A stretch of DNA of 64,000 nucleotides from Chrysophaeum taylorii. Taxonomy: Eukaryota > Sar > Pelagophyceae > Pelagomonadales > Pelagomonadaceae. Shown piece after piece: positions 3,610 to 47,732 of the stretch. The DNA is taken from contig JAQMWT010000557.1 of assembly GCA_029834535.1 (NCBI GenBank), positions 1-64,000 on the forward strand, given 5' to 3'. Numbering within the stretch: the stretch's first letter is position 1; each line of letters starts with the position of its first letter. Below the pieces are notes generated by a model. That model was not told the DNA's origin. It saw nothing but the letters and a program-made list of their open reading frames with translations, and ran no database searches. Both the position numbers and the translations under genes were made by a program.

Positions 3610-3889
3610 CATGCCTCCGATTCGAGTTATTATTAGTATAACGCTGGTGATGTCTGTCGTCCAAAGACTGGCAACAACAAGCAAGTGCAAGCGAGACGAG
3701 GCGTCTAGTGAGTGAGTGTGTGCTCGCACATCATCTGTATCAGGAGGAGACTAGGCGTGGCGCGCGGTTGCTGCTTGCATCAACCACGCGAGAAAACGAA
3801 CTCCTCCTCGTGTGTACTGGAGACTGTGGCTTCTAGTAGTAGGAAAAAAAAGTCAAAGTTGCCAGCAAGGGGGGGTAAGTAAGCAAGAG

Positions 3890-5788
3890 ATGCGCGGCGT
3901 CGCGATGATAGCGAACATCATCCTCCTCCTCCTCCTTAAGTCGGTGTTGGGCGAGGAGTGGGAGTCGCTGGAGTTCGAGGAGGCGCGGCTTGAGGCGAAC
4001 TGGGTAGTGACGTCGTGCGCGTCGTTTGCGCGAGCCACGCGCAAGAATCCGATGACGCGTCGCGTCGCTATGGCGAGCGATGAGGCCGCGAGGTCGCTGG
4101 GTCTGGTCGGGGAGTGCGGTGCGTGTTGCGTGAACGCGGGGACGCCGACGGAGTTAATTGGCGCGGCGTGCGGGCTGCGGCGCAGCGAAAACGCGACGCG
4201 ACGCTGGTTTGCCGAGGTTTGCGGGACCGTCGAAGTCGGATGGGTAACGAGCGGAGACGCCACCAAAATTTGGTGGGTTGACGGAGGATCAAAGGTGTAT
4301 CAGGCGGATCTCGATCGCGAGACGCCGCACTGGCAGTCGGCTACGCTGGGCCAGGTGTTCGAGGTGGATGGGAACAGGTACGAGGTGTCTGGCGACTCGG
4401 TCTTCGTCGTCGAGACGGTCCAACCAGAAGAAGGGTCCTCCAGACCCTTTCCGGAGGAGGCGGTGGTGGTGCGCGAGGAGGCGCGGACGGCGCGGGGGTA
4501 CGAGAAAGTTCGCGCGCCGTATGACGTGTTTGGGGACATGAGCGCGTACTGGTTTGAGAATCGCGCGCGACTCTCTTACGAGGAAGTTCGGGGTCGGCGG
4601 TTGGTGGCGCACGTGCCGCCCCGGCTGAAAGCCAAGTGGTTTGAGGCGGTGCGGCCGATGGTCGAAAAGTGGATCGGCCGCGAGCTGGAGAAAGCAGCAG
4701 ATATCTCGGGCATGCGCGTCTACGGCAACGGGTCGGTGGTGTCGCCGAGAGTCGAGCCCGGCGTCTCGGCGATGATAAACATCGACCAGGCCGAAATGAA
4801 GGATGACTGGAACGTCTCGGTCAAGGACGCGACAAGTGGGGATTTTGTCGAGGTGCCGTTGGCGCCGGGCGACCTTTTCATGTACGAGGCGCGGCTCGCC
4901 GGGATGCCTCGACCGATGAACGGCGGCGGCTACGTCGCGATGCACGCCCGCTACAGATTCTTGACCAAGGAGGATGACGACGAGGAGGAGGAGCCCAGGG
5001 TGAAGAACTGGCGGCAGGCTTTAAAGAGACCGACGACTCCTCCTCCTCCGACGACGACGACGACGAAAAAAAAACAAAAGCTCAGGTACGTGCACGCGCG
5101 CAAGCTGAAATCGCGGTGGCACAAGGTCCTGGACGCGGCCGGGTTCTACGCGGTCGCTTCCTTTCTGGGACTCGTGTTTCTCTTGTGCTGCGCCGTTGCG
5201 ACGCGGCGCGCGCGGCGCAAGAAGACGAGGTTTCAACGTCTTCAAAGAGACTCGAGACCATCGGAGGGGTCGGCGTCGCCGAGGCGCGACAAGTCGCGGT
5301 ACAAGGCCCTTCCCCCCGGCGTGCGGCAGGCCGCGCGGTCGAATCGCGGGCTTTCGGTCGTCGAGCGGTGGCTCTCGAGCTCCCGCAAGGCTGCCGACGC
5401 GCGCGACGCCGAGCCGCCGCGACGCGCGTTGCTGCACCACGCGGCAGCGCACGGCGCGGCCGCCATCGCGCGCGTCTGCGCGTCGCGCGGCGCCGACCCA
5501 AACCTCGTCGACGACGCCGGGGACGCCCCCCTCCACCTCGCCGCGGTCGCCGGCTCGGGGGCCGTCGTGAAAATCCTTCTCGAAGCTGGGGCCCTGCCCG
5601 ACCTTCCCGATGCCCTCTCCAAGACCCCCCTCGACCGCGCCCGCGAAGCCAACAACACGGGCTGCGCCCTCCTCATCTCCAAGAAGCTCGACGCCAACCG
5701 CCGCCGCCATACGAGCGACAACAACAACAACAACAACAATGGGGTCGTTGTTGCGCGTCGCCTGCGACCCGAAGAGGACCAGGTCTAG
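3890..5788 (+). CDS. Type I membrane protein: degenerate prolyl-4-hydroxylase-like domain, TM helix, ankyrin repeats
   Basis: 632 aa. I start at the ATG that opens a signal peptide (MRGVAMIANIILLLLL, residues 1-21); upstream in-frame codons give no such leader. Residues 273-359 follow the pattern of 2-oxoglutarate/Fe(II) prolyl 4-hydroxylases: MRVYGNG, then MINIDQ, PGDLFMYE and a closing RYRFL. Where the family has the iron-binding H-x-D, this protein has R287-V-E289. The distal histidine and the 2-oxoglutarate-binding basic residue are also not seen (GMPRP, GGGYV). A Pro/Thr/Lys linker precedes a membrane helix at 416-437 with a basic stop-transfer cluster, and three ankyrin repeats fill about 512-599. 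The tail has an Asn run encoded by an AAC microsatellite. Inferred topology: luminal or extracellular pseudo-enzyme, cytosolic ankyrin scaffold, perhaps a receptor or tether. The fold is likely; the ligand is unknown. Confidence 0.75.
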   Translation: MRGVAMIANIILLLLLKSVLGEEWESLEFEEARLEANWVVTSCASFARATRKNPMTRRVAMASDEAARSLGLVGECGACCVNAGTPTELIGAACGLRRSENATRRWFAEVCGTVEVGWVTSGDATKIWWVDGGSKVYQADLDRETPHWQSATLGQVFEVDGNRYEVSGDSVFVVETVQPEEGSSRPFPEEAVVVREEARTARGYEKVRAPYDVFGDMSAYWFENRARLSYEEVRGRRLVAHVPPRLKAKWFEAVRPMVEKWIGRELEKAADISGMRVYGNGSVVSPRVEPGVSAMINIDQAEMKDDWNVSVKDATSGDFVEVPLAPGDLFMYEARLAGMPRPMNGGGYVAMHARYRFLTKEDDDEEEEPRVKNWRQALKRPTTPPPPTTTTTKKKQKLRYVHARKLKSRWHKVLDAAGFYAVASFLGLVFLLCCAVATRRARRKKTRFQRLQRDSRPSEGSASPRRDKSRYKALPPGVRQAARSNRGLSVVERWLSSSRKAADARDAEPPRRALLHHAAAHGAAAIARVCASRGADPNLVDDAGDAPLHLAAVAGSGAVVKILLEAGALPDLPDALSKTPLDRAREANNTGCALLISKKLDANRRRHTSDNNNNNNNGVVVARRLRPEEDQV

Positions 5789-5818
5789 TGTGTATTATCC
5801 TAACTACTAATCGACAGA

Positions 5819-5863
5819 TGTTTGTCTGTTTGTTTGTCTGTTTGTCTGTTTGTTTGTCTGTCT
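5819..5863. repeat. TTTG/TCTG tetranucleotide microsatellite
   Basis: About eleven units of tgtt/tgtc directly abut the 3' end of LINE A. Confidence 0.9.
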
Positions 5864-8524
5864 TTAAATGTCGACTGCTAAGAGGGGGGGGTGTGTGTGG
5901 GGAGCATGAAGGATGTGGGTAGGTTTGTGGGGTATGAGGGATGTGCCTGACGGGCGGAGATAAGTACGCGGGACCTAGTCGGGGTCATCGCCGAGGCGTG
6001 GGGCAGGCGAAGAGAGGACGGGCCCCGCCCGTAGGTCGTACGCATGCTGCCGCCGGACGTATGTGCGACGAAGGGTGACGTCCTGCTGGGATCGGGCGGC
6101 CTGGGCGGGGTTCCCCGAGGCGGCGACATGGGTGAGGGCGGTGAGGGCACAGCGAGCCCGGCCTAATGCGTTGGCGATCCCCCACTCACGGTAGATGCGG
6201 CGAGTTTGGGCCGCCTTTGCCTCTGTGAAGTTGGCGCAGCCGCTTGTCACCCAGGTTCGCGCAGCGATGCGCTCTGCGCATGTTTGGGCGAGAGCGTGGC
6301 ACGCCGCGCTGGCCTCACCGAAGGCACCGAAGACGAGGCCGGCGACGGTGCCGTAGCTACGTAGCCGCTGTTCGACAGGGCCCAAGAAGCCAGGCGGTGG
6401 TGCTGTACCCGGCTGGGGGATGATGGCGTCGATGCCGCGGGCGTGAGCGAGGTATTCGGAGTGGACTTGCGCTGCGCGCCGATCGACAGGCGACGGGTGG
6501 GAGGGATGGAGGGCGTGGGCGGTGTACAACGAACCCCAAGCGAGGGTTTTGATGTCGTAGAGTTGCTCCTTGTTGTCCAGCGTGGTGAGGATGTCTGGGA
6601 CGACTTGACGTCGGGCGAGATTGCCTCGGTACCGGCCGTAGAGGCGCGTGCGAATGGTAGGGGCGACGACGTCAGCAAAGATGCCGAAAACCTCGGACAG
6701 GGCTGGGATGCCGGCCTCTTTGACGCTGCCGTGGACGCAGTCGAGCTGGCCGTCATGCCAGGTGGTCCGCGCTCCTCCGCGGTTGACAAGGTTGGCCTGC
6801 GTGAGAAGCACCTTGCCGTGAGCGTCGAGAACGACGTCAGTGCCCAGAATGCGAGTGCCCACGAGGCCCAAACAAGCTGGAGAGGGGTAGCCAAAGTACT
6901 GGGCACACATCTCAGCCCAGCAGCGGTTGGGGATTTGAAGGCCAGAGCTGGGCCACGAGCTGATGAACGTGGTCGAGAAGCGATCCCATGAGGACGCCGC
7001 TACTCGAAGTGCTTCGGTGATGGGAAGGGTGGCCGCAAGGCGCTGGAGTGCAGTGGCCCGAGCTGTCTCGCGCTGGGAGGTTAGAGCACGCTGGAGTTGG
7101 GGTATGAGCACGGGTGTCGAGATGGTGGGGTCGACGAGGACGCCCATGGACACGAATTCGTGGGAGAGAGGACCGTCGACGAGATGAACGTTGGCGGGGT
7201 CGCCGGAACCAGCGCCGCCGTGGGAAGCCAGCGTGGTACGGAGATCAGCCCGAAGTCCGTCCCACGCAGTCTCGAGTGTCCGCCCCAGGCGGCAACCGGA
7301 TGCGAGGAGGTGGTGCCAACGGTGCAACTCGTTACCTGTGCGAAAAGAAGTGGCACCCAGGACCGAGGCGAGGCGGGGAGGTAGCCAGGGACCTCCAAGG
7401 CACCCGTAGGATCGCGAAGGTCGACGAGGTGTGGGAGGGCCTGGGCCGCCGTGCCAACAAAGGCGGCGGGGCTGAGGTCGGCGCAGGAGCGAATGCCGCC
7501 ACCCCCACTTCGAGCAGGAAGACGGAGGCGTTGGAGGACGATGCCGTTGGAGTCAAAAACCTGACGCGGATCTGCGCCAAGTGCTGTGGCGACGAAGCTG
7601 AGGGCGGCAACGTCGAAGCGGCGGAGCGCGCTCAAGGCATTGGTGGGGTAGCAGTGTTGCGCGATGTAGTCCATGCGCGGGGCGATGCAGTAGCGGCCCA
7701 ACGAGTACATGCAGTGGAGGGAGACGTTCTGGAGCTTGGTGCGAATACGGCTCATGTAGCTCACCTGAGCGTCAACCTCGCGTTGCAAGGTAGCTTCGAC
7801 ATAGGCATCTCCGGCGTGGCCGGGGAAGCCGATGGGCACACCATAGATTACGAGGCCGTCGGCGACAACGGGGATACCAGCAAGAGCGCGCGTGCCGTCA
7901 GGCGCAACTTGACGTGGTCGTGAACATCGGGGTGGTCGAGAAGCCCCATGCCAAGTGCCGGACAGAACGCCTCGCACTTGTCGAGGCGGAGCTCCTCGCC
8001 GCTAGCTTGGATGTCGCGGGCGTACTGCAGGAGGGCGTCGACAACCTCGCGAGGGGAACCAGAGATGACGCCGTCGTCCATGCCAAATCGGGCGTAGCCG
8101 GCACATGAACGTAAGCGGGTGTCAAGGGCCTGAGCGGCGTCATGCGTTGCCAGACAGTACGCCGGTGGATAGGTGGGGTCGCCTTGCTGGCCGCCTTCTT
8201 GAGAGTCGAAGGGGGCGCGATCGAGGCCGGTGGGGCCGTGGAGGGCCACCCAGGATGCCGGCCGCAATTGCTTGAACATAAAGTGGCCAAAGGCACGCAG
8301 CTTAGCGTTGGCGTGGTTTGCGAGTTTGTCCACGACGGTCCGGCGCTTGAGCTCGTTGAAGGCGTTGCGTTTGTCCAGCTTGATGATGACCTGGTCGGGG
8401 TACTGCTCCGCGTGGGTGCGGACGCCAAAGACGAGGCGCGAGGGGCCGCCCTTGACCCCGACGGCAACGTTGATCGGGTACAGTGCCTCAGAGAGCTCGG
8501 AGTGGAGGCTGTCCCTCGGTTTAG
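5864..8524 (-). mobile_element. LINE A: 5'-truncated non-LTR retrotransposon
   Basis: The element reads on the minus strand, from a truncated 5' end near 8524 where it meets a Helitron remnant to a 3' end at 5864. It keeps the middle and end of one large reverse-transcriptase ORF and a GC-rich 3' UTR ending in the family tail (on the plus strand tctttaaatgtcgactgcta then a G run). There is no poly(A) tail. The last 120-150 bp recur at 12586-12705 and 56619-56795, and the tail alone at several other sites, so the family amplified mostly as short 5'-truncated copies. Confidence 0.8.
5975..8520 (-). pseudogene. LINE A polyprotein remnant: reverse transcriptase plus PD-(D/E)xK nuclease-like domain
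   Basis: Reverse transcriptase motifs appear in order on the minus strand: A as KLDKRNAF (about 8365), B as EGGQQGDP (about 8190), C as FGMDDG (about 8085). A long C-terminal region follows. At about 6560-6620 it has VPDILTTL, then a short gap, then LYDIKT, which fits the PD...(D/E)xK pattern of restriction-like endonucleases found C-terminal to the RT in early-branching LINE clades; an HDGQLDCVHG stretch lies upstream. Three frames are used in turn, with frame changes near 7850-7980 and 7100-7330, so at least two frameshifts inactivate the copy. The N-terminal third is missing. The reverse transcriptase call is firm; the nuclease call is by motif only. Confidence 0.75.
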
Positions 8525-8526
8525 GG

Positions 8527-8572
8527 TAAGGATCAGGTAGGCGCGAGAGTAAGGATCAGGTAGGCGCGAGAG
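8527..8572. repeat. Two tandem 23-bp units at the Helitron 5' side
   Basis: taaggatcaggtaggcgcga(gag) occurs twice (8527-8549 and 8550-8572). One related unit lies in reverse orientation at about 49335-49362 beside the second Helitron remnant, so the unit belongs to the Helitron rather than to LINE A. Confidence 0.75.
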
Positions 8573-9110
8573 CCAGACAGTGATCCTCCAAGCCGTCTAC
8601 GGCGACCTCGCAGACTATTTCCACGACCCGCGGCGGCTCTTTCGGCGCGCCATTCTCACGCCCCGTCGAAACGATGTTGTCGATGCTGACAACGCCGCGC
8701 GCATGAATGACCGCGGCCTTTTTTTCCCGGAGACGAGGCGTCGGAGTTCTTTTTTTCGGCCGACTAGGTTGGGTCGGAAGCCGACGCCTCGCTCTTTACA
8801 GTCGAGTTTTGAACTCCCTGACAACCAACGGCATGCTGACTTTGATCGCGAGCTTAAAGTCTTCGCAACCTCGACCCGTCGCACGGCCACTGCAACGGTA
8901 CCAGATACATGATCGATCGTGTCGTTGTCACCGAGGCTCCTCCAACCTGTATCCCGTAAGGCCCGCCGACGCCAAACGATCAACAAGAGCCAGGGCCAGA
9001 CGCCCCGCGAGGTCGGCGTCCTCTTGCCCACAAGCCCGTCTTCTGCCACGTCCAGCTCTACGTGGCTCTCCGTCGATCGGCAACCCCGAGGATATCGTCT
9101 TCTGAGTCGA
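8573..9110 (+). pseudogene. Helitron copy 1: C-terminal Pif1-like helicase remnant
   Basis: Helitron Rep-helicase motifs can be read across shifting frames: YGDLADYFHDP and RAILTP (about 8600-8660), LRNLDPSHGHCNGTRYII (clearer in the second copy at 48900-48980), TINKSQGQTPREVG (about 8978-9020) and VQLYVAL (about 9050). The last two are the conserved C-terminal helicase motifs of Helitrons and Pif1. Only about 180 residues' worth remains, with several frameshifts and no Rep domain, so it is a dead fragment. The reverse-strand copy at 48640-49365 is about 85-90 percent identical by eye. Confidence 0.8.
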
Positions 9111-9179
9111 CGACTCCACCCTACTCCACACGTGCTCCGCAATACCGATAAGCCCCCTCCCGGCGTCTACACGCGCACG

Positions 9180-20226: not shown

Positions 20227-22037
20227 TTAGGACTTTATTGTAAACACGTTCGAGGGAGCCGTTAGGGAGGAGATTATACGATTGGATGGCATGTATAACA
20301 GCCCACGGGTAGTGTGGTGCCGGATCTGTAGGGGGTGACCTTTATAGGGTACATTAAGCATATGCCGGAGTCGTGTAGACGCGGCAGTGGCTATGTGACC
20401 AACAGCGGCTTCTACTTCATGATTAAAGACATGTAAGTAAGGGGGGAACGCGGACATATTAATACCATGTTCCACACGGAAGGGGGTTGTGACATGAGAT
20501 AAATAGGGTTTAAAGGAATCACAATAGATTCGTTTTAGTTGTACATGAACATAAGTAGAGCAAAAATTGCGGACAAACTCAAGGGCGTTACAAAATTCGC
20601 TGGAATTAGTGCTACGACAAAAGTACACTAACAAAAATTTAGAAATGAGACACTCAAAAACAATGATATGTGGAAAGGATCCCCATTCAGAGAGAACGGA
20701 TACGTAACCAACGTCACATGCCCAGGCTTCACCAGGTTGAAAAATTTTTCGAATGATGGTTGCTTGGTAAGGTGATGTGGATGAGGAAAGCGTTTTTTAT
20801 GAATTGTACAATCCACACAGAACTTACGGTAGGGTACGTCAGATGGGTGGTGTCCAGGATTGGCAATAACCTGAACAGCTTTTATAGCTTGAGAATCACT
20901 AGAATGGTGGATGTTGTGAAAATTGGTGGCTCGTTGTTGCGCATCTCGAAATGCGAGGGTGCCTCTGGCATAAACTTTCTTGTCGAAGGGCGCATGCTTC
21001 TCATGGAGCTGTCTTGGCGTTATAAGAGGAATGTGTTTTTCTTTAGTAGGAGATGATGTATCTCCGGATGAGGTGTCAGAGAGGAAGACATGAGCTACTG
21101 AATCGAGATGAAAAGATGGAAGTTCGTGGTTAGAGGCAGGATTATCACAACATGAAAGTTTTTTATTGTAGATGTAGAACATTGTAATGGAACTCTGGTG
21201 TAATAATAAGGATGTATCTGTTGGGAATATATTTGTGAAGAAGGTTGACCTATAGTTTTTGGTTAGAGAGGCATGATCAGGGTCAAACGATGGTGATAGC
21301 GTTAATTTACGCAAGTCATAGACAAGCTGACACAAATGTTTATAAATTATATGATATGTTCCAGCTGGAATAGCATTCGCGATTATATCACAGCGTAGGT
21401 CCGGGGACAAAGACAGAAGAAAATTGATTTGGTACGCTGCGAAGTTATTGGCGCGTGCCAATTCGCGAGTTGAGTAATGTCGGATACGATCGAGTCGTGG
21501 ATCGTACACGAGCATATTAGCAAATCCACGAATGGTAGGAGTAGGCGTGTATAAAGAATGAACTTTGGCACCCATCTTCCTATCGCTTGATGTAATAAAG
21601 CCCAGATATCTGCTTTGGGACAGATGCATGTCACTTAAAGCAAACATTTTATCGATAAATTCGAGACGATTTTCCTGAGGGTAGAAGACAAAATAATCGT
21701 GAAATACAGGAGAAGTATAGGTGACCAGTGCTTGTACTAAACGACGCGTGTCTTGATTTTCATTATTATGATGGTATGCTTGGCAAAGCCAAAGAAAACC
21801 AGTAACAGGTTCGAGAGAAGCAGTCTTGTCGATTCCGGCATCATGTGTTAGGAAGGTATAGGTTTCGCCAAAAGCATTTATATGTGCCTGGTATTTAGAA
21901 GAGGAGTTAGAAACTGTTATGTCTCCTCCTGTATGTCTTCCACCGGTGATGTAAGTGATGGAGGAAGTAGAGGATTTATTTAAAAATAACCTGTGAGATG
22001 GTTGGTTAGATTCGATAGTTGTAATACGAAAGGACAC
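20227..22037 (-). pseudogene. Family A integrase region
   Basis: It contains the pre-integrase zinc-binding pattern (histidines in HNIHHSSD, then CVDCTIHKKR, about 20800-20920) and integrase-core-like sequence with SSEFCNALEF and LKRIYCDSF downstream (20530-20600). About 400 residues without a recognised match precede the zinc-binding part. Fossil. Confidence 0.65.
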
Positions 22038-22077: not shown

Positions 22078-22305
22078 GACCTCTCCCGAGCATGGGAGCC
22101 AGGCCGGACCGACAGGAGCCAGTCCGGAATCACGGGCCTGTAGATGAGGAGCGCCGAAAGGTCGGTCGGCGGAGAGTGACCATCAAGCTTGTCGCAATGC
22201 GACGAGGAGACCGCGATGTGACTGACAACCAACTCGCCGATAACCTTCCGTCTTCGCCCCCCGGCCATACCCCGTCCCACTGCGAACGTTCCGGCTGCCA
22301 AGCGT
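22078..22305 (-). other. GC-rich patch inside family A copy 2
   Basis: About 230 bp with host-like high GC and CG-rich composition in an otherwise AT-rich element, at the junction between the methyltransferase-like module and the integrase region. It may be captured or inserted host DNA; no terminal repeats were found. Confidence 0.4.
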
Positions 22306-22309
22306 CCCA

Positions 22310-23282
22310 TAATATTATAGAGGAGCACGAAAGCTTTGAGTTCAATAGGGGATCTCATGCAAGCAAGTGGTTTTCTTGAATTAGTCAAGAATCCCAGGCG
22401 AAAGTTAGAAATGCCCTCCATTTCATCTTGACTGGGATGTTCGACTGTTTTATTAGAGTGCAGACGAAGGAACAGCATAGTTAAGGTTTCAAGCTCAGTC
22501 ACAGTTAAGCGCACGGATCCTGTACGACTGAAAATGTTGTAGGTTTTAGGTGTGGACACGAATGGTATGTCAGGAAAGACCTGCGTCCAAGGTTCGTCGA
22601 CTATTAACTTGCGACTGATGGAATTAGCGTGGTCTGCAATGTCCAGAAAGGAAGTGACTCGTTTATTAGGCCATGAAAGCAGATCAAGAGGGCCGGTGTT
22701 ATATTTACGTGCAACGAGGATCCATCTTTCTCTGCCTTGATAATCTCCACATAGATAGCATGGAAATCGGTCACACATATCCACCGTATAGTGCATCGTT
22801 GAGAAGATGAGATTAGCAACTCGTATATGATCTTCATACGATGCGGAGTGTGGTGGTGTCATTTCCATGAAAAGAACGAGCGGCTTTAAAAGCTCAAGTA
22901 CACTTAGAGCACTTGGAAACAAGGAATCATCCATATCACGCTCGAAGGTGGAAATGGATCTCCCATTGATTATGTTGCGATTTGTGCATGGTGACGTCAA
23001 TTCCACTATATCGGTGTAATATCGTGCACGTTCAGCGTCCGATGCTCGATGGAGATATGTCAGAAACTTAGGTAGGGATGGGAAAACTTCGATGGAATTA
23101 CCAAAACGTCTTCGTAGCATGTGCGTGATATTGTCGTCGCTCTCAACAAGAACTTTAACGTTGATGTTGATTTGCAAGTCATTAGAAGCGCAAGCCAAGA
23201 ATGCAGGAGTGGACATCCCAGAGCAAAGTAGAGTTACAGTAGGTGTTCGTGGGCTAGGAGACGAAGTTACTGTGCGAAGCAA
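22310..23282 (-). pseudogene. Family A C5-cytosine DNA methyltransferase-like module
   Basis: Minus-strand segments fit the ordered motifs of C5 DNA methyltransferases: motif I VTLLCSGMSTPAF, an acidic residue after a strand (KVLVESDDN), motif IV region DIVELTSPC, motif VI region LFMEMTPPHS, motif VIII GDYQGRERWILVA. Order and spacing follow the family B module at 28470-29010, which lies at the same place between protease and integrase. Motifs IV and VI are less canonical than in family B. Methyltransferases inside retrotransposons are known from Symbiodinium and Klebsormidium. Fossil. Confidence 0.65.
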
Positions 23283-23570
23283 TCGTGTGGTAACCTTGCG
23301 TCATAAAGGAGGTGGGAAATGCTTGCGTATGTAAGGCAGCTGCGAATGCATTGACTCCAGGATGGTTTTAAGCCATGGGACGTAAATTACGCGTTCCATG
23401 AGGGTGGAATATAGTTTAAGCATTTCGCGTTGTTCATTAAAAGCACATAGTCTGAACTGTAGTGAGCGAAGTTCCATTTTACGCGCTTTTGCTTGTTGTC
23501 GCGAATAAATTGGTAGAGTTGGCAACAGGTTACTGAGTCTAAACAAAGTAATCTTGACATTATCATCAAT

Positions 23571-26934: not shown

Positions 26935-27450
26935 TCCACACGAAGGTGGTTCACTTTTCGTCGATATTCACACACGCGGCTGGGTCCCCGCCGTCCAGTC
27001 CACGCTACTAGACTCGCCCTAGTAGTACATTTCACTCAAGCGGGGGAGCACAGGGGCATATCAAGCCCCGGGCTCGCTCTCTTTCTCTCTCTCATGGGAC
27101 TGGCATTCCCACGGCTCTCGGAATTCATTGCCGCCAGGCTGAGAACGCGCCAACGGGTGTTTTTTTTTTCGCGCGACCCGCTGTCGAAGCAGCGTGGCAC
27201 CACGATCATTTTTTTGAGGTCCATCCCCAAGTGCCGTGCCGTGCTCGTGGGATATACCCAACTGGGAACAAGCGGCTGACGGGTCCTGAGGGGGACACCC
27301 CGGTGACGTATATTCGCGAGTGCCCTCGTCTCTGCCTTCTCTGTACGGACGTCTCCGCGTCTCGCCCCCCCCCCCCAGTGGCCCTCACACAGCAAAAACC
27401 ACGAGAAGCACTAACTTTGAGTCTGGGAGTTGCAGACCAATAATAATAAC
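26935..27450. other. Spacer between Copia A and Copia B
   Basis: About 515 bp of GC-rich host-like DNA with a run of 14 C at about 27367-27380 and several T-runs. No gene is recognised on either strand. Confidence 0.5.
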
Positions 27451-27652
27451 TAGAGAACAGTAATTTGTACTGTGCTATCCTTCAGCAGAGTCGAGAGCAG
27501 TGGCAGTCTGTTCTCGTTTCTGTCTCTACAACGAGAACAGCCGGTGTGAATAACACAGCGTTTTTCTTAAGTCAAAAGGTGGAGGAGTTAAGGGAACTAA
27601 CCCTAGATTAGGGGGTGGGTACTAACCCTAATTCAAATTTTCTATCTCTACA
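27451..27652 (-). repeat. Left LTR of family B (3' LTR on the minus strand)
   Basis: About 202 bp, paired with 35885-36088 and related to 51513-51689. The inner edge on the element strand reads TGTAGAGATAG, preceded by the purine tract GTGAGGG. Confidence 0.8.
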
Positions 27653-28469
27653 CCCTCACAGATTGAACTCGGTGAGCGAAAGCTGGATCAAACTAAGCAG
27701 GAAGTGTTTTGCCATCGACAAGAACATAGAGAGTGTTCTGGACGGAATCGTACTGTGGAAGAGTAGCAGAAAGAGCAACTTGATGAGACGGTGGAGAAGA
27801 AGAGGTAGAGTGAAAACCACCGTAGGCGTTTTTGAACTTGTGGAATAAGTTGCGTGAAAGAAGTTGCGAAAAATGATCGGCGAAAGAGGCACCCTTACCA
27901 GCCACTTCATCGGTGTCGAACCGTTGTACTTGCAGGCTGCGGGCCTCTCCTCCAAAGATACAAAAGACTCAACCGGATATGCATTATATCTCGTCTTTCT
28001 GGTCGTCCTGCAATTCCGAAAAGGTCTCCAAGTTATAGCGACATCTCAGCTCAAAGCTCTGCATGTACAAGCCACCGATCCACCACTGCCCCACGAACCA
28101 TATCTGTACGAACTTATGAACACATCAACCGCAAATCCGCACGATTATAAGCCTCTTATAGGAAAAACCGCCGTAGTCCTCGCCACTCGCAAACCTAATG
28201 GCCTGTTGTCCCCGCCGTCCCATCCAAAGCAAACATTTAGTACTGTGCTTAGTTTCCACACAAGAAAAACGAATGTCACTCAAGGACGAGATTGCACACG
28301 TCACAACGAATGTCGCCAAGACACGAGCCAAATCGCACACGCTTGACTTCGCCAAGCTACAGAATCATTCCCTAATTTTATCTGATCTTGTCAACCTCCC
28401 GCGTACTGTCGTCCAATATGCATTCACTGGCTCCGCGGCCCTCTCTGTGCAAGCACAACCCACTCCGCT

Positions 28470-29010
28470 CCAAACAGCCATTATTACAGGTGGACTTCAC
28501 CAAGAAGGTTTTGACGTTTTTTGCAAACGATTCGACAAATGCCTCACTGTCGTGGTCACCTGCGAAATCAACCCTATTATGCGCACCCGTGCGCAACAAT
28601 TCTTTCCGCACGCTCAGCACTATGCGGACCTAAAGAAGCTCAATGCCGCATTACAAACCGGCAACATACGACTACCTCCTCTCGACTTGGCAGTCTTCAC
28701 ATTGCCCTGTCAACATCTGAGCGTAATGAAAGAATACGACGGCTATGCCACTCCGGTGACCGCCGACCTTTTTGTCAAAGAACAAATCCGCTTTGTTCGT
28801 TGCACGCTCCCGACCTACGCCATTGTCGAGAACGTACCACCCACCCCCCGAACTCATCACGAGTATACCCAAATCGCCAAAGGCTATCAGCGCTTAGGTT
28901 ACTTCCGACACTCCGGTGTCTACAATGCCTCTGCTTTTGGTGACGTCATCAGCAAGACACGCTATCTCGCTGTCTATGCCCGACACCCGCTCAACGGCTA
29001 CAACCTCGAG
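28470..29010 (+). pseudogene. Family B C5-cytosine DNA methyltransferase domain
   Basis: Plus-strand sequence shows the C5 methyltransferase motifs in order: motif I TAIITGGLHQEGF, motif II VVVTCEINP, motif IV FTLPCQHLS (the PCQ catalytic loop), motif VI YAIVENVPP (the ENV triplet) and motif VIII-like NASAFGDVISKTRYLAVYA. The enzyme family transfers a methyl group from S-adenosylmethionine to C5 of cytosine through the Cys of PCQ. It lies between the protease and integrase parts, the same position as the module in family A. About 180 residues of recognisable domain; a target-recognition part is not identified. Described as a fossil. Confidence 0.75.
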
Positions 29011-30499
29011 AAAACCGCTTCTCCTTGGTTAACCTCGCCTCCGAGCATGGCTCCTTTCCTGGACCCCAGTCACACCATCCCTGACGATCTCTGGATCGCC
29101 AACCCCGCCCTTCGTGGCACAGTGCCCCGCTCCACCTTGGACTACTACCAGCACAAGGCCACCTACTCCGACAAGCCCGCCAACGCCTCGAAACTCTCGA
29201 TTTCCGACAACGCACGCATCTGTCAAATGCTTGCACGCTTTAACAAGCCCTTCACGGACCTAGGTCTCGACGCCAACGGCATTCCCTACGCCGCCATGAC
29301 CAATATCTCCTACCTCTCGATTTTCACATTGCTGCACAATCACTTGTCGCAACATCCGACTCTGGCCGCTTGGAACACACTACGCTGCTTTCATGCCTCC
29401 GAGTCTCAATATACTTCTCACTTGGATGGAGCCATCACCGGCACTGCCGCTACTGCCGTCGCCTGTGGCTACTTCCGGCGCGCCTCCCTCACCCTACATA
29501 CTAGGCCCCCTCGCATCTTGGACTGTTCCCACCAACCCGCAGTCTTCCCCCAACGCACGCCTTTTCCCTGGATGTTCCCAAGGGCACCGCCTTTCTGGTT
29601 GTCGCCTACACCACCTCCTTGGCCGCCGCTCACAGCTGCACGCGCCCCTCCACGTGGGTCCACTACATGAATCGCTCGCATCCCGGCTTTGCCGCGATCG
29701 ACTCACGAGGGCGAATTACTCTCGATGACCCGACGGGACTCATCATGTCCAAAACCCGTCCCACCTATGCGGACTATGTCGGCCACATCGGCGACACGCT
29801 TCAGAAAAGCACCAAGTGCTACTCGGTCACTGGCTCGTACCCAACCAACACGAGCTACTCCAACGCCTTGCTGCTGATCTCTCCCGACCACATCCGCTAT
29901 GCGACCCTCAACGAAATCGCAAAGTTTGGACACCACTCGGACCCGGAAATGCTTCGTCTCTTCCAACAGCACCCGTCGTACTTCGCGTTTAGGGCACTAG
30001 CCAACGCCGTCCCGCACAACATGCTGCAGGCCAAGTACAGCGCTGTCCTCGCACTCCACGAATCACATCATCACGTGAACCTTCACATCGAATGGGCAAC
30101 GATACGCCATGGCATCCCCAGCCCCGGAGACATCAACCAGGTTGCAGAATTCTTCTCGACCATCTCCAGCCGTCTCTTAGCAGAGGAGGACCTCAACCTC
30201 ACCTCCCTCTTCAATGCCGTTGCAGATGCTCACCACGATGCAATCCGCAAGCCACGCAAATCGAAAAACCTCGAGACGCTTCTTGCCGAGGCAACCGTTG
30301 CCAAAGTCCGAGTTGACAAGCGACCCAACCCCCCTAGCGCGTCGACTGCCGCTCTGCCGCCCTTGCACAAGCCCGGCACCATTCAGCACGCCAAAAGAGT
30401 GCTTTTGGTCACTCGCTGGCGCTGCATCCATCACCAGCAACCCGAGATTCTTCGCCACACGATTGCCACTAATGTAACGAGTCTTCGGCCCAGGTGATG

Positions 30500-31047
30500 A
30501 TCGGTATCTGCAAGACTGCAGCGAATGCAAGCGCTGCCAATCGCATGTCACTTCCGTCACAAGAACACTTCCTGGTCACAGGATGAACTGGCCTATGCTC
30601 CTGGCCAACATCTCCACATGGATGTCTCATACCCGAGCATCAGCAAAATGCTATGGTGGCTTTCGTTACATCACGCATTTTGTGTGTATTATCTCAGCAC
30701 ACAAGTGGGTGTATTTCCTGCGGAAACTAGACGCGCAAGACGTTCTGGCTGGCATCTTCTATGTGGTCAATGTGATTAAGGTCGAATTCGATGTAAACGT
30801 GAAAATCATCTCGTCTGATGCATTTTCAACTTTCCGCTCCGAAGCACTCCACCCGGTCAAGGTGCAACTCGGCATCCAGTTTCAAATCATTGGTCGCCAC
30901 CTACACCAGCGGAACTTCGCGGAAAACATCATTAAAGAAAACACTCGAGGCACTGTAGTTCGCTCCTCAACCTGCGCAGTGTCCGCATCGAAGGAAAGCC
31001 CATTGCCGCCGAGTATTATCATCCATTTGTTCTGCTGCACAAGATAA
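30500..31047 (+). pseudogene. Family B integrase core
   Basis: PGQHLHMDVS, then YGGFRYITHFV and KIISSDAFSTF give the Copia integrase layout (first Asp after GQH, second Asp in the SSDA stretch). Pre-integrase sequence lies upstream (29620-30480). Fossil. Confidence 0.75.
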
Positions 31048-31129
31048 GCCGACAATCAGCGCTCTCATGGACTGCCCTCGCGCACAAACATGAGCTGCAC
31101 CGTCCCCCGGCGCATCATGTCACCCATGG

Positions 31130-33022
31130 CACCGCTCTTGAAGCTCCTTCCCTTTGGCGAACCGTCACTTTCGTCTATCTCCAAGGCCATAAACTGGAAC
31201 CCTCCAGCGTCTCAGCCTCCTATCTCACCAGCAACAATTACGTCCCCAATCTCCCCGGCACGGACCGATTTATCCGTGATTTTCATAGCTCCCTCCTGCT
31301 TGTACATCAGGGGCGATATGGGAAAATCGTCACCTCTAACGACTTCCACGTTGATGCAGACATGCCAGTCAACCGCAACAAAGAGATCGAACGGATCAAA
31401 GCACTCGCGCAGATCCCAACAGAGGCACGGCAAGAGGACCCGCTACCAGCTATAAGCGAACAGCAAATGCCGGAAGCTAATCAGGAATCGCATAGTGAGG
31501 GCGAGACTCACGATGACGAGCAGGATGACAAACCTAACGATGACGACGAACATAAAGAACCGGATCCAATCTCCACTGAGGATCCAAGTCCAGTCAGCGA
31601 CGAGACCCCCGAACAGGACTTTTCTTTCCTCAACCGGCCACCTCCGCCGGATGATAGCATTCCGATGCCCAAACGAAAAGATCGCCTAGAGGTTGCTCTC
31701 GACGATTCAGGTTTTACCCCAGTTCTCGTGAATCGCAACCAGAGTGATAAACTCAAAGCAGATCTCAAGGACGAACGCGGATTTCGCATCCCTAAGGACC
31801 AACTCTATATTGTGAAACGTGTCGATGATAGAAAACTCTTCACCAGACGCACTATCGCCTCAGAGTATGGTCGCAACTGGAAATACCAGCAGGAGCAATC
31901 CACGGCTCGCGCCACAGCCAACATGTCCAGCACATTGATGTTCCTCATCACTGTCAGCGCTCTGCACCAGGGCCATGCCGCCAGCATCGCACCTGATCTC
32001 AACATTAGAAGGGATGCTAAGCCGCCAAATGATGTCCCGAAAGGATGTCTCCTAGCTAACACCACACAAGACTATGGTATCGTGGGCGGCACCGCACTGG
32101 ATCTGCAGAGAGAAACCGACGCAGAACTCTTGTATGTTGACTTCCCAAGGAAGCCGTACCACTCATCTGTATTGGTAGACCATCTCGACAACGACAATTC
32201 TGTTCTCGAGAGCTATTTGTGCCACGACGAACTGTCACCGGCAGAGTATTATGCGCGTCAATGGAACCAAGAATTCTGGTGTACAAGCCCCTCTCTTTTA
32301 TGGGACATCTCAGCGCGTCAACACTGCCACCTAGCTTCTCGTCACAGACACGCCTTCATGCATGACTCTGACGAACTCGGACACCTTTTTCTAAGCCAAA
32401 GTGATCCGAATCAAGACATTCTCCAAGAAGTCATGGACTATGACTTGCAGCACATCGACCATGTCGTGTTACAGCTCGTGACTGATGAAGATATTGTATA
32501 TGAGCCTGAAAAGATAGTCGAACTCAAAGGACTCAGCGAAGAAGATAAGTTAAAGCATATCGCTTCGATTCACAAAGAAATTGAAGGCTTGTGCTCCAAC
32601 GGTGTCTTTAAGCTTGAACCTTTACCGCCAGACCGTTCGTCTATCTCGACGAAACTCGTGCTGAAGATCAAGTATTTTGCTGACGGCACTCCAGACCGCT
32701 ATAAGCTCGTCTAGTCGCCCGAGGTTTCTTGGCACGTGTAGGCATTGACTTTTATGCCACATCCTCCCCAACCGCAATACTCGCCACCAACCGGTTATTG
32801 CTCGCCATCGCCGTGAAGCACAAGCTCCCGGTTGCACACGCGGACATTCCCCGGGCGTTCATCCAATCGGCACTCGATCGCCCGGTATGGATCGACTTCC
32901 CTCGAGGAATACATGTCTCGCACAACCTTGTCCAGCAGATACAGAAGAACCACCCAGAGTCCAAGCTCTTAGACTCGTCAAGGCTCTCTATGGCCTCAAA
33001 CAGTCCGCTTTGTTATGGAACA
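31130..33022 (+). pseudogene. Family B linker and N-terminal reverse transcriptase
   Basis: An acidic linker is followed by the Copia reverse-transcriptase start: LKGLSEEDKLKHIASIHKEI, TKLVLKIKY, VAHADIPRAFIQSALDRPVW and a KALYGLKQ-like end near 33000. The later reverse-transcriptase motifs are not on this strand. Fossil. Confidence 0.75.
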
Positions 33023-33119
33023 TTAAGACGAGATACAATGCATAACCGGTTGAGTCTTTTGTATCTTTGGAGGAGAGGCCTGCAGCCTGCAACTACAACG
33101 GTCTGACACCGATGAAGTG

Positions 33120-35800
33120 GCTGGTAAGGGTGCCTCTTCCCATATGAATGGTGTGTTCGGGAATCCTGCGTATGGACCTGCGAACAAAGTGTTGAATTGT
33201 GCGAGTGAAGCAGAATGATGCACCACCGTCAATTAATGAAGTTTCGGTGCCTGGTCCATTGCATCCGTGCAGCGAGTTTGTCTTCGTGGGTGACTTGACT
33301 GGAGTGTAAGATGCACAAAGAAAATCTGCGACTCTGGGTGAAATGGTGGGTGAAGTCTGGAAATTCGATATCGTAATGCTTGGTGCCTGATTGAGCAAGA
33401 TGTGGTTGGCGGGACGGGCGTCGTCGGCAACCATCAGCGAAAAAGCTGACTCTGGTGTAGAGCACGCATGTCGTCGCTGTGACGTTGTGCGTAGTCTTCG
33501 GCGGAGTCATCTTCATCATTGATATCGGGAATGGTGTCGTCGTGGAGTTTGAGGTGACCGTGGTCATCATAGAAACCGAGGTGGCCTTTGGCATCTTGTT
33601 CGTCGGTTTCGGCTTCGCCCTCATCAGGTTGATCGTCCTGGGGATCGGACGACAGCATCTGGAGAAATTCTGCGGTTTCACTATCGGCTTCAGAGAGAAG
33701 TATCTCATTGGAGATAGTGGTGATGAGGTTGATGAGCTTGGTCATGCGTTCGGATCTGGACGTGTGCGGGCGACCGGCTTGGCTTGACTGACGAACCCAT
33801 GCCGCAGGTTCCAGTGTCCCCCCATTCGTCAATGTGCATGTCTTGCAGGGCAGTTTACGATGATGACGTTAGACCTTGTGAGTTGACGTCGAGGACGACG
33901 TCTTCTTTTCCTACGGGGCTCCCCGAGACCGTTTTAGCCGATGTTTTAGCCGATACAGTTTTGGTCGCAAGATTGCGTATGGTTTGGAGCTTGCGACGAA
34001 CTTCACGAAGGGGGACCTTGAAGCGTTGGTCAGGAGTAGATGGCTTTGGTGGATGTGGTTGAGTGGGAAAGGTGACCTTGCGAAGGTGCGGGTGCTCGCG
34101 TTTGTCGGGGGTGACAGGAGAAGCACGGGGATTTTGCTTGTTCTTCGTTGGGGTGAGAGGGGAGGCCTGGGGCTTAGGACTGTCATTGATGTCGTAGTAA
34201 GACGGGGAGCGAGGATTGGGAGGCTTTTGGGGGGGGGGGGCTTCTTGGTGTGGCGGGTGAGCTGCTTTTCCCGATAGGCGTGAAGATGGTGGATGAGATC
34301 ATTGTCTTCGTCTTGATCGAGGTTGGCCTCCGTGAGAAAAACAGCGACAGGGTCGGTGTCTTCATTGGGATTCGGAGGGATTTCATCTTCAGAGGGAGAA
34401 GTGTCATCATCGTCTTCAGCGAGGTGGAGACCATGACGGCGGGAGCGAAAACGTGGGTTGTCCATATCTTTAGTCGGCAGACGACCAAAGTCAGTGACAA
34501 ATCGCAACGGCTTGAAGTTGAGAGTTGGGTGAGGCTTGAGGTGAGCCCAAAAGTTGCGCTCGAAGGTGGAGATGACTGTAATCCGGGCGATCAGCTTGGG
34601 AAGATGGTTTATCGCTTCCTTGTCTTCGTCGAGTAAGAAGGAGTCGTTTGGAGTACGCAAACAATTGGCAAGACGCGTGAAGCCCTGGACGTGCGATGGG
34701 GCGCGGGAGTCGAGCAAACTTGGAGGGTACTTGAACCGAAGTATTTGGTGTATTTCTTGGAGGATCTTGTCATCGGAGAGTTGGAGAGAGGAATCGCTAG
34801 TAATCTGGCGCAGTTGCTGCTGGACATGGCGCATGTAATCAATGTAGTGAGCAGGCTCGTGGATCTCCGGGTTGAACGGCGTGTCCAGGAAGGCATTCTA
34901 GACATAATGCGCATGATGGACGTGGTTCTGGCCCGTGTGCTTATCAAGTGCTAGGCGAACTTGGAGCACAAATTCGAGTCCTATCGGATGGGAAGATTCG
35001 AGTGCGTCAATTTCGTCGTATGCTGGAGGCTTGACGGAGTCGCTACCGGCATGCAGGAAACGGCGAAAGAGGGGGTGCACGGTCTCGCGGAGGTACACGA
35101 TGAAGTCGGCTTCTTTTCCTTGGAGGTAAGGTTGGGTGATCGGATACATCTTTCTTTTTGTCGTATCGGCGGTGTCCTTGTCTTGATCTTTGAGTTCTTG
35201 GAGCTTGGGCTCGTAGACGTTCACCAGGAAGTGTTTGCCGAATTTGCGGTAGACGCCTTTGTAGTAGACGTAACGGCATTGGAAATCTTGTGTGTTCCCT
35301 GATGTAGCGTGGTGATCGGGGTCCTTGTCGTATTCTTCGATACGGTGGCTTAGAAGAGCGTCAGCGAGATCACTAGATCCGCGCAAGACGGATTCCCACG
35401 TGTAGAATCCCTGCAGGAAGCATTGGGTTATGCCTGTTTCAGGCATCAGATGTTCAACGAATAACTGCATGACGCGAAACGAAAGCATTTGGGGTGTGAC
35501 TCGCGCGTTGTCCATTGACTTGAGGACGGCGCTAGGTGGGTCACTAAAGGTGTTAACCTTCGTCTTGGGATCTTGTTGAGCCGGAGTGGGAGGCGGAGCC
35601 GCAGCAGCAACGGCGGGTGGTGCCAGCATGGCTTTGAGTGCGCTTGGAGAGATTGGAAGCGGGCGTCGTCGTCTTGTTTTCGCGCTAGCATCTCCCTTTG
35701 ATGCTTTTCCTCTAAGCGAGCTTCTTGGTCTTTCATGGCTTGAGCATGTTCGGTCTTCTGGGTGGCCAACTCTTTTTGAAGTTTTTGGTTAGTTGACATT
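33120..35800 (-). pseudogene. Family B gag-like and protease region
   Basis: Starting just inside the right LTR: a coiled-coil start (MSTNQKLQKELATQKTEHAQ), a helical gag-like region, an acidic region, and a protease-like LIDGGASFCF near 33210. Fossil. Confidence 0.65.
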
Positions 35801-35884: not shown

Positions 35885-36088
35885 CTAGAGAAGAGTAATT
35901 TGTACTGTCTTACCCTTCAGCAGAGTCGAGAGCAGTGGCAGTCTGTTCTTATTTCTGTCTCTACAACGAGAACAGTCGGTGTGAATAACACAGCGTTTTT
36001 TTAAATCAAAACGGTGAAAAAGTTAAGGGAACTAACTAACCCTAGAACAGGGGGGTACTAACCCTAGCTCAAATTTTCTATCTCCACA
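35885..36088 (-). repeat. Right LTR of family B (5' LTR on the minus strand)
   Basis: About 204 bp sharing cagcagagtcgagagcagtg and the end caaattttctatct with the left LTR. Next to it the plus strand reads actggtgcccaatacc (35869-35884), a possible primer-binding site resembling but not identical to the family A site. Confidence 0.8.
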
Positions 36089-41524: not shown

Positions 41525-41892
41525 CAACGCGTCCCGTTGCGCGTCCGGTATTCCCTCCACATAGTGCGCTGGACAAAGAGTCGACCGTCGGATGAGGTGT
41601 CCGAAGGACGATAGTACCCAAGTCCAGCGACGGAGGAGAACACCACCACCGCCTTGCGAATTTGGGGTTCGACGTTGAACGTAAAGGAGCCGCTTTCCCA
41701 CCATCAAACAGCGGTAATTTCTCAATTGTTAAACTTGTCAATTCTGCCGCAAATTTCAACGGGTGCCGGCGAATCAGGGAAAACGCTGGGAAGCTTACGA
41801 TCGAGAACAAATTCGTACCACGTTTCAGAGATTTCGACGACAGTTCTCACAGTTATTACGGCAACAACAACAACAACAACGAAAACAACAAC

Positions 41893-43011
41893 ATGCGCCT
41901 TGTGATCGCGATCGCCAACGTCGTCGCTGCGACCAACCGCGCATGCAAGGACGTCGGCTCGCCCTTGACTGACCTCGTGCCGGCGCTCCCGTTTCAGTTC
42001 TGGCCTCCGAACGGGTCGACCTTCGTCACCAAAAGCCTCGGCAGCGGGAGCTACGCGATCGTGACGGCGCAGTACCAGACGATGATTGATGAGGAGACGC
42101 CGGTCACTGGCCTCGAGAACGGCTACCCGATCACGACGACCTCTGGTGGCATCATAGTGACCGACAAGGGCGTCGTCGTTATCGAGGCCTTCATCAACCG
42201 TTTCCTCGCGTGCCAGGTGCTCGACCTGATCGAGGATCTTGACCCGAAAAAGCAGAAAATCAAGTACGTCGCCATCACCAACTTCCACGGAGACCACGCC
42301 TTCGGCACCGACGTCTTCGACAGGGGCGGTATCACTTACGTGCTCCACAAAAATACTTACGACTACCTCACCGGAAGCGGCTTGCAGACCGAAATCGCAC
42401 TCCTCGAAGATTCCCTTGGCTTCGGACGAAATACCGGCATCCGCACGGCGGCCCAGGAGGCCGTCTACGACCCGGCCATCACAATCTCGAACGAATCGGG
42501 CTCCTTCACCCTCGACGGCCGCACGATCGAGACGCTGTACTTTGGCTACATGCAGTCGTTCGGCGACCAGCTCATCTGGGACCCGACGAGTCGCAGTTTG
42601 TGGTGCGGCAACATGATTCTCGGTCCCTACAAGATTCCTATTAATTTCGATGGCGGCGTGGATCTCGCCATCGACTCTTACGGCCGCTTTCGCGACTGGC
42701 TCGACGCGACTGGCCCGCCCATGAACGTTGTCCCGGGCCACGGCTTTCCGATCGACTACGATACCGTCCTTGCGACCGTCGATCTCAGTATCGACTACTT
42801 GATCGCCGTCCTCGCTGCCGCCGAGGATGCCGCCGCGAACAACTTTACCGTTCCCCAGTTGTGCGCAACCTATCCCCTCCCAGTCATCCTCAACTCCACG
42901 GACCCCCTTCTTAGCCTCGCGGGCATTCACAACATTAATCTCATCAATGCCTTCCTTGAAGCCTCCGGCCAGGACGTCTCGGCCTCCGTCAATTTCTGCC
43001 CACCTCCGTAG
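41893..43011 (+). CDS. Metallo-beta-lactamase-fold hydrolase, paralog 1
   Basis: 372 aa. The start is the ATG at 41893 because it aligns with the start of paralog 2 (MRLVIAIA-VVAAT); the frame is open further upstream but only through AAC repeats that look like leader sequence. MBL-fold landmarks: GGIIVTDKGVVVIEAF (strand and Asp region), TNFHGDHAFGT at residues 129-139, LYFGYM, SLWCGNMILGP and VVPGHG. The metal motif is N130-x-H132-x-D134-H135, so the first His of HxHxDH is Asn, as in the TNxHxDH subgroup of MBL hydrolases. The last conserved His is in PGHG. The short hydrophobic N-terminus could be a signal peptide. Substrate unknown. It is about 90 percent identical to paralog 2, including about 160 bp of 5' flank. 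Confidence 0.82.
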   Translation: MRLVIAIANVVAATNRACKDVGSPLTDLVPALPFQFWPPNGSTFVTKSLGSGSYAIVTAQYQTMIDEETPVTGLENGYPITTTSGGIIVTDKGVVVIEAFINRFLACQVLDLIEDLDPKKQKIKYVAITNFHGDHAFGTDVFDRGGITYVLHKNTYDYLTGSGLQTEIALLEDSLGFGRNTGIRTAAQEAVYDPAITISNESGSFTLDGRTIETLYFGYMQSFGDQLIWDPTSRSLWCGNMILGPYKIPINFDGGVDLAIDSYGRFRDWLDATGPPMNVVPGHGFPIDYDTVLATVDLSIDYLIAVLAAAEDAAANNFTVPQLCATYPLPVILNSTDPLLSLAGIHNINLINAFLEASGQDVSASVNFCPPP

Positions 43012-46270: not shown

Positions 46271-46610
46271 GTGGAGGGAACGCAGAGGTCGCGTGCAGGC
46301 ACGTCGCCACCCTCAACCGCTGCTCGATAGAGCTCCTAATAATAACACGACGTCCGTAGGAGTCTCCCTTCGTCCTTTTACTGGCAAAGCAGGTCGAGCG
46401 CAGACTGGCTCAAAAAAAAATTTCGACTGGCTCAATTTTTATAAACTAGCGTTCGATGACAATTTCTTAATTATTCAACCTGACAATTCTGCCACAAGCT
46501 TGAACGGTTGCCTCCGAATCGGGGAACACGCTGGGAAGCTGGCGACATCCCAGAGTTTTTGACGTGACTCGCGCCACGGATATTGTGGCAACAAATTCCA
46601 AAACAACAAC

Positions 46611-47732
46611 ATGCGCCTTGTGATCGCGATCGCCAGTGTCGTCGCTGCCACCAAGCGCCGCAAATGCAAGGACGTAGGCTCACCCTTGACTGACCTCGTG
46701 CCGGCGCTCCCGTTCCAGTTCTGGGCTCCGAACGGGTCGACCTTGGTAACCAAAAGCCTCGGCAGCGGCAGCTACGCGATCGTGACGGCGCAGTACCAGA
46801 CGATGATTGATGAGGAGACGCCGGTCACTAGCCTCGATAACGGCTACCCAGTCACGACGACCTCCGGCGGCATCATAGTGACCGACAAGGGCGTCGTCGT
46901 GATCGAGTCCTTCATCAACCGCTTCCTCGCGTGCCAGGTGCTCGACCTGATCGATGATCTTGTCCCGAAAAAGCGGAAAATCAAGTATCTCGTCATCACC
47001 AACTACCACGCAGACCACGCCTTCGGCACCGACGTCTTCGACAGGCGCGGTATCACTTACGTGCTCCACCAAAATACTTACGACCACCTCAAAGGAAGCG
47101 GCTTGCAGACCGAAATCGCACTTTTCGAAGATTCCCTTGGCTTCGGACGAAATGCCGGCATCCGCGCGGCGGCCCAGGCGGCCGTCTACGACCCGGCCAT
47201 CACAATCTCGAGCGAATCGGGCTCCTTCACCCTCGACGGCCGCACGATCGAGACGCTGTACTTTGGCTACTTACAGTCGGTCGGCGACCAGCTCATCTGG
47301 GACCCGACGAGTCGCAGTCTTTGGAGCGGCAACACGATTCTCGGTCCCTACAAGGTTCCTGTTAACCTCGATGGCGGCGCGGATCTCGCCATCGACTCTT
47401 ACGGCCGCTTCCGGGACTGGCTCGTCGCGACTGGCCCGCCCATGAATATTGTCCCGGGCCACGGCTTTCCGATCGACTATGAAACCGCCCTTGCGACCAT
47501 CGACATCAGTATCGACTACTTGATCGCCCTCGTTGCCGCTGCCGAGGAAGCCGTCGCCAGCAACCTCACCATCCCCCAGTTGTGCGCGACCTATCCCCTC
47601 ACAGCCCTCATCGACACCACGAACCCCCCCAACAACCTTTTGGGCGTTCACGACATTAACCTTATCAACGCCTACCTTGAAGCCTCAGGCCAGGACGCTT
47701 CGGCCTCCGCCAATTTCTGCCCACCTTCGTAG
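46611..47732 (+). CDS. Metallo-beta-lactamase-fold hydrolase, paralog 2
   Basis: 373 aa, same orientation as paralog 1. It keeps all the landmarks: GGIIVTDKGVVVIESF, TNYHADHAFGT (N-x-H-x-D-H), SLWSGNTILGP and VVPGHG's counterpart IVPGHG. Paralog 1 has Cys in the WCGN position where this copy has Ser. The N-terminus is MRLVIAIASVVAATKRRKC. Similarity starts upstream near 46455 and stops shortly after the stop codon, so a segment of about 1.3 kb was duplicated; the copies are now about 3.6 kb apart. Both frames are intact despite divergence, suggesting both are still selected. Substrate unknown. Confidence 0.82.
   Translation: MRLVIAIASVVAATKRRKCKDVGSPLTDLVPALPFQFWAPNGSTLVTKSLGSGSYAIVTAQYQTMIDEETPVTSLDNGYPVTTTSGGIIVTDKGVVVIESFINRFLACQVLDLIDDLVPKKRKIKYLVITNYHADHAFGTDVFDRRGITYVLHQNTYDHLKGSGLQTEIALFEDSLGFGRNAGIRAAAQAAVYDPAITISSESGSFTLDGRTIETLYFGYLQSVGDQLIWDPTSRSLWSGNTILGPYKVPVNLDGGADLAIDSYGRFRDWLVATGPPMNIVPGHGFPIDYETALATIDISIDYLIALVAAAEEAVASNLTIPQLCATYPLTALIDTTNPPNNLLGVHDINLINAYLEASGQDASASANFCPPS

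Follow-up and report, generated by a model that had tools for sequence, protein, structure and literature searches.

The window, a stretch of 64,000 nucleotides from Chrysophaeum taylorii (contig JAQMWT010000557.1, positions 1 to 64,000 of the forward strand), contains a copy of a retrotransposon, here called family B, bounded by direct long terminal repeats (LTRs), and a domain belonging to a second, related element, family A (Table 1). The family B element is a member of the Copia (Ty1-type LTR) group that carries a C5-cytosine DNA methyltransferase (MTase)-like domain in Pol between the protease and the integrase. The window copy itself is dead, being inverted, frameshifted and truncated: its middle has been flipped, about 1.07 kb (the rest of the reverse transcriptase (RT) and RNase H) is missing in comparison with copy L031, and the MTase frame is out of step with the frames on either side of it. 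Inverted internal repeats were also seen at other family B loci, namely in L035 (1423-1786 and 6227-6590, 97%) and in L038 (2-959 and 3745-4705, 81%). The window copy may thus not be the only one with a flipped middle, and such rearrangements could stem from template switching or self-integration.

Table 1. Coordinates of the retroelement features in the window.
Feature	Position	Strand	Remarks
LTR, 5' end of the minus-strand element	35885..36084	-	matches the LTRs of copy L035; 88% against its partner LTR
LTR, 3' end of the minus-strand element	27445..27650	-	from comparison with copy L035
gag and part of the protease, same element	33093..35788	-	protease-like SLIDGGASF at 33239-33213
Flipped inner segment, from the end of the protease through MTase and integrase to half of RT	27886..33027	+	inverted relative to the rest of the element
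Inverted repeat arms bordering the flipped segment	27884-28004 and 33018-33138		about 120 bases, inverted, at both borders
Open frame (497 aa) with MTase	28177..29670	+	neighbouring Pol parts in another frame
C5-cytosine MTase-like domain (Copia B), from the place of motif I up to the candidate motif X	28465..29346	+	PF00145 match
Motif IV TLPCQ, catalytic Cys	28699..28713	+	Cys in 43/44 family B copies, the remaining copy having a gap
Motif VI IVENV	28822..28836	+	Glu in 40/44 family B copies
Motif VIII-like GDVISKTR	28939..28962	+	K in 43/44 and R in 43/44 family B copies
Motif IX/X candidate LSISDNAR ... AAMTNISYLSIFTLLHNHL	29194..29346	+	P0004-L031 alignment stops inside the corresponding stretch
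Second motif IX/X look-alike IRYATLNE ... ALANAVP	29892..30014	+	no profile match alone; role unsettled
Integrase region, two frames	30429..31047	+	HHCC-like start; D-D-E by eye: HMDVS 30615, SSDAF 30811, ENIIKENT 30922
Truncated RT	32729..33103	+	RVT_2, 35.4 bits, profile 46-118 of 244
MTase-like domain of second Copia element, family A	22299..23300	-	homologous to the family B domain; no Pfam match of its own

An initial annotation of this DNA had proposed a C5 MTase domain inside a Copia element, and the proposal is borne out by the profile match, by the layout of other copies and by the selection acting on the domain. The translated segment matched PF00145 (C5-cytosine DNA methyltransferase) with 34 bits against a cut-off of 22 over residues 134-265 of the open reading frame 28198-29667; a missing match, named at the outset as the result that would count against the assignment, was not what was found. 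The homology of the MTase frame to other family B copies extends to 29544. In an alignment of 44 family B rows including the window copy (a second alignment had 16 rows), the PCQ and ENV motifs pointed out initially proved to be retained across the family.

The order of the Pol domains is best read from copy L031, where a gag frame (1600-3333) overlaps a pol frame of 1952 residues (3297-9152) that by arithmetic lies at -1 relative to gag. This pol frame encodes, in order, a protease (DGGA, recognised by eye), the MTase, an integrase-like stretch (rve match at 1016-1110 with 17.2 bits, below the cut-off of 32.6, and a D-D-E arrangement seen by eye) and an RVT_2 reverse transcriptase (residues 1686-1933, 133 bits), which agrees with the position between protease and integrase that had been predicted. 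The location of an RVT_2 enzyme downstream of the integrase-like stretch argues against membership of the element in the Gypsy or DIRS groups. Copy L034 shows this order too, with MTase and RT both above cut-off and no match to rve, and the LTRs of L035 (about 198 bases, 96% alike) are 8.9 kb apart. L031 is not intact either, as a stop follows the pol frame before the end of Pol; its 1952 residues are the longest family B frame without an internal stop, and stops occur in many of the listed copies.

The domain is widely dispersed in the 70.8 Mb genome. The family B segment gave at least 156 matches (150 of 411 first-look candidates scored), family A at least 105 (105 of 3007 candidates scored) and a third family, C, represented by copy L064, at least 151 (150 of 1000 candidates scored). 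The true number of family B copies is lower than the match count, since certain copies account for two matches each and a few pairs of contigs seem to be duplicates. The pairs C25/C521 and C10/C297 share MTase matches at near-identical positions; both haplotypes, or duplicated contigs, may therefore be present in the assembly and inflate the match counts somewhat. In the family A copy L053 the MTase frame continues into matches to rve (16.4 bits), RVT_2 (16.5 bits) and SH3 (22.7 bits), all below cut-off, and stops inside the RT, while in L064 the MTase frame is followed by a frame with an rve match (16.8 bits, below cut-off) and RVT_2 (142 bits); protease-like stretches upstream of the family A and C MTases were recognised by eye only. 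Among the first 40 of 150 listed RT matches, at least 19, in rows compared by eye, are preceded by a listed MTase of family A, B or C that lies on the same strand at a distance of 2.5-6.5 kb. Four RT matches without a linked MTase were inspected, of which two had a family A MTase and two had none in the 0.9-1.2 kb examined; Copia copies without the MTase may therefore exist in this genome.

Selection on the domain was assessed as omega by parsimony counting of changes on trees of the copies, with inner and end branches kept apart, after six short loci nested in longer ones (L001, L006, L019, L024, L025 and L026) had been dropped; the family B copies were chosen mostly as best matches to the window domain, so that intact copies are favoured. 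Purifying selection on the family B MTase matches that on the protease and the integrase in strength. The inner-branch omega of the MTase is 0.157 (372 silent and 166 replacement changes, 44 copies) and that of its C-terminal part 0.15 (34 copies), compared with 0.168 for the protease (23 copies), 0.14 for the integrase (7 copies) and 0.04 for the RT (5 copies and just 10 changes); on the end branches omega is 0.25 to 0.38. The family A MTase has an inner-branch omega of 0.051 (187 silent and 27 replacement changes, 11 copies) and retains the catalytic Cys of motif IV in 11/11 copies and the Glu of motif VI in 10/11; at the place of the motif VIII QxRxR it has Q in 11/11, the first R in 11/11 and the second R in 10/11. 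In the two families tested, the MTase is under constraint comparable to that on the element's own enzymes, so that what looked like an oddity becomes a lasting component of a retroelement lineage.

Two proteins from a marine protist transcript set, P0004 and P0005, resemble the family A domain of the window (42% with E 6.5e-73, and E 1.8e-17, respectively) and also score 42.0 and 44.7 bits with the family B Pol, where 100 shuffles of each peak at 26.2 and 24.6; P0005 is a PF00145 protein (41.8 bits) and P0004 falls just under the cut-off of 22 (20.2). The predicted structure of the family A domain (mean pLDDT 46.6) finds C5 MTases as its best alignments. In sequence searches the family B frame had no match among 6854 candidate proteins at E <= 1e-3, the family B polyprotein region none among 5674 at E <= 0.01, and the window frame none in PDB at E <= 1. 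The family B profile listed 12 bacterial C5 MTases and a haemoglobin among PDB sequences at E <= 10, none of them significant (best E 0.075); no DNMT3 is among these 13 sequences, which excludes nothing. A viral origin of the element MTase is possible but not supported, as no relative was found in viral contigs searched with the family B alignment, the family A alignment and P0005, and no match in phage records searched with P0005 and family B.

The host genome has its own C5 MTases. A genome-wide PF00145 search gave 57 matches above cut-off, 55 on listed family B places and two in host genes, though it reads exon by exon with 123 of 474 candidates scored, and intron-bearing DNMTs may escape it. 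One host gene (C621) is a DNMT5 with an MTase and an SNF2 part; the other (C634) we take to be DNMT2-like from its SPPCQ signature. A gene for a chlorophyll a/b-binding protein (PF00504, 52 bits) adjoins the latter, which indicates a photosynthetic host and agrees with the algal lineage assumed initially. Capture of the host DNMT2 or DNMT5 by the element was considered and rejected, since no special likeness was found: the Z values of family B are -0.4 to 3.3 with DNMT2 and 0.1 to 2.8 with DNMT5, against 10.2 to 11.1 with a selected bacterial enzyme, and in a midpoint-rooted tree with long branches the element MTases are separate from host DNMT2, host DNMT5 and one bacterial enzyme (support 93/91). 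Comparison of the element MTase with host DNMT2 and DNMT5 by hhalign was not significant. DNMT5 was likewise rejected as the source of the family A MTase; both have CSG at motif I, yet the comparisons gave no support.

The C-terminal limit of the domain has two candidates. The family A equivalent of the end adopted in Table 1 aligns with the C-terminus of M.HaeIII and M.HhaI, in a part of the model with pLDDT < 50. The second look-alike pair lies about 300 residues past motif VIII, between the MTase and the integrase; its Glu is present in 29/29 family B copies examined, and family A has a counterpart (IRHYSTRE...IIANAIP, window 21366-21485, minus strand). In shuffle tests, 9/2000 shuffles reached the score of the A version against bacterial motif IX and 1/2000 that of the B version against the A version, while the B version against the host DNMT2, host DNMT5 and bacterial ends remained at chance level (199 to 472 of 2000 shuffles). 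As the sole motif IX/X this second pair was rejected, since the family A model ends the MTase earlier and the profiles are silent there, and both places are kept as candidates.

The reading we prefer, and to which we give a probability of roughly one half, is that the window holds a decayed copy of a Copia family whose Pol-borne C5 MTase methylates the element's own new DNA, a mark that the host DNMT5 could then keep. Pol would be expressed through a -1 frameshift out of gag and processed by the protease, and the MTase would enter the particle along with integrase and RT. Its predicted activity would most likely be to methylate cytosines in newly made element DNA at about the time of reverse transcription or integration. 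Maintenance of the mark could pass to the host DNMT5, and new copies might thereby arrive already quiet, or resembling DNA that the host tolerates. The part given to DNMT5 follows from its being a maintenance-type enzyme with a maintenance role in fungi. In the sections of PMC9998398 drawn on here, DNMT5 is connected, in a diatom, with Copia elements being methylated at CG, and in those of PMC5890265 retrotransposon DNMTs methylate CG de novo, with self-methylation of cDNA being proposed.

Several observations weigh against this reading. In family B the motif I place has IIAGG (each G in 43/44 copies) instead of FxGxG, a motif from which the host DNMT5 also departs (CSGTEA), and motif VIII retains K-x-R without the canonical Q of QxRxR; families A and C have EMTPP in place of ENV and lack the N. 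Support from the fold comes from the family A model alone (mean pLDDT 46.6), a single-sequence structure prediction of the window family B frame was uninformative (mean pLDDT 31), and a PDB search with the family A profile found no MTase (best E 0.35). In codon alignments, differences confined to a single copy were not enriched in C-to-T changes at CpG, neither in family B (29 of 44 copies used; 11/2634 site-copies versus 38/6461 at other C) nor in the 11 copies of family A (6/671 versus 28/2770), the same answer as an earlier, noisy count on 30 loci with unaligned flanks. The observed/expected ratio of CpG is 1.02 in L031 and 0.90 in A and C copies; of the 4-kb blocks that make up the window, the six containing the elements give 0.93-1.06 and the remaining ten 1.07-1.40. 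This mild relative deficit could be a faint trace of methylation or merely base composition, and it is possible that methylation occurs in another sequence context or is well repaired.

The degenerate motifs and the missing CpG excess would also suit an MTase fold without remaining catalytic function that the element retains for binding DNA or RNA, or as a structural piece of Pol, perhaps to steer integration or aid reverse transcription, and selection by itself is no proof of catalysis. We regard this as a tangible, if lesser, possibility, since a non-catalytic fold has less reason to retain the catalytic Cys, found in 43/43 readable B and 11/11 A copies, or the Q and first R of QxRxR, both present in 11/11 A copies. 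Much more improbable is a DNMT2-like enzyme directed at RNA, either that of the element or the tRNA primer. LTR elements package their Pol together with RNA and a tRNA primer, and there are C5 MTases that act on RNA; against this stand the Z values and tree position with respect to the host DNMT2 given above and the fact that the closest profile and PDB sequence matches are DNA MTases. The condition of the window copy and the stops in many listed copies might suggest an MTase gene captured once and now decaying as a functionless passenger; this is already disfavoured and hardly credible in the face of inner-branch omega values of 0.05-0.16 in A and B, similar to those of the element's own enzymes, and of the presence of the domain in three diverged families.

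On the history of the domain, the B and A/C versions might go back to independent acquisitions, from different MTases, by related Copia elements, with no single ancestral capture. We consider this rather unlikely: the position in Pol is identical, P0004 and P0005 bridge B and A/C, both share the odd signatures of PP after motif VI and GD before motif VIII, and the tree places them together apart from host and bacterial enzymes (93/91). A bolder extension of the preferred reading is that the element MTases are the only enzymes of this alga able to start cytosine DNA methylation, so that Copia seeds a pattern which the host copies, the MTase being an ancestral and regular part of the Copia lineage. 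It is suggested by a maintenance-type DNMT5 and an RNA-type DNMT2 being the only others found in the exon-by-exon search, and we hold it to be decidedly doubtful. As the host yielded only these two besides the element MTases, it becomes directly testable whether a transposon can provide its host with de novo methylation.

Cytosine MTases are known from other retrotransposons, the carriers described in the sections of PMC5890265 drawn on here being LINE, DIRS and Gypsy elements, with Symbiodinium Copia elements free of any DNMT domain; the corresponding part of PMC6338049 names no carriers other than Ty3/Gypsy and DIRS. According to the former source, KnitGypsy-Dnmt3 of Klebsormidium nitens is likewise a C5 MTase in the Pol of an LTR element, present in several copies and under purifying selection (Ka/Ks < 0.2 there), but it combines Gypsy with a DNMT3-type enzyme, whereas here a Copia element carries a divergent enzyme. 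The same text describes SymbioLINE-Dnmt and SymbioDIRS-Dnmt3 of Symbiodinium, which resemble the present case in that an alga has C5 MTases on its elements by the hundreds and that one class is likewise an orphan lineage, and differ in having LINE and DIRS rather than Copia carriers. One sentence of PMC12344493, with the 2018 paper as its reference, names LTR Copia and DIRS elements as carriers of some DNMT3 members; it calls the enzyme DNMT3 and, in the portion drawn on, describes no such Copia element, and as the 2018 paper has Gypsy the wording may be a slip. The bacterial and phage C5 MTases (M.HhaI, M.HaeIII, PHROG 116/363 and the Helicobacter mehlei enzyme) have motifs IV, VI and VIII in the order seen here, where the last is a motif VIII-like stretch; B finds its best matches by sequence among them, and they also rank with the top fold matches of A. 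They are stand-alone enzymes, and that of H. mehlei has a canonical motif I and QxRxR, unlike B. Our literature search, with most subscription papers outside its coverage, found no description of a Copia lineage with an MTase as a regular part of Pol. What is new is that a further algal genome has the cytosine MTase in Copia elements, where three diverged families carry it and the matches number in the hundreds.

Other parts of the window contain further coding sequences. Frames on the minus strand at 5975-8596 resemble, by eye, a non-LTR (LINE-type) reverse transcriptase, and two adjacent paralogous frames on the plus strand (41596-43011 and 46563-47732), 94% alike over a 300-base repeat unit, look metallo-beta-lactamase-like by eye. 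At 57469-63999 on the minus strand, an open frame of at least 2177 aa that runs off the window encodes a multi-domain polyketide synthase, intronless in this stretch; it contains three ketosynthase domains spaced about 611 aa from one another, along with two phosphopantetheine sites and a match to thioesterase that stays below cut-off.
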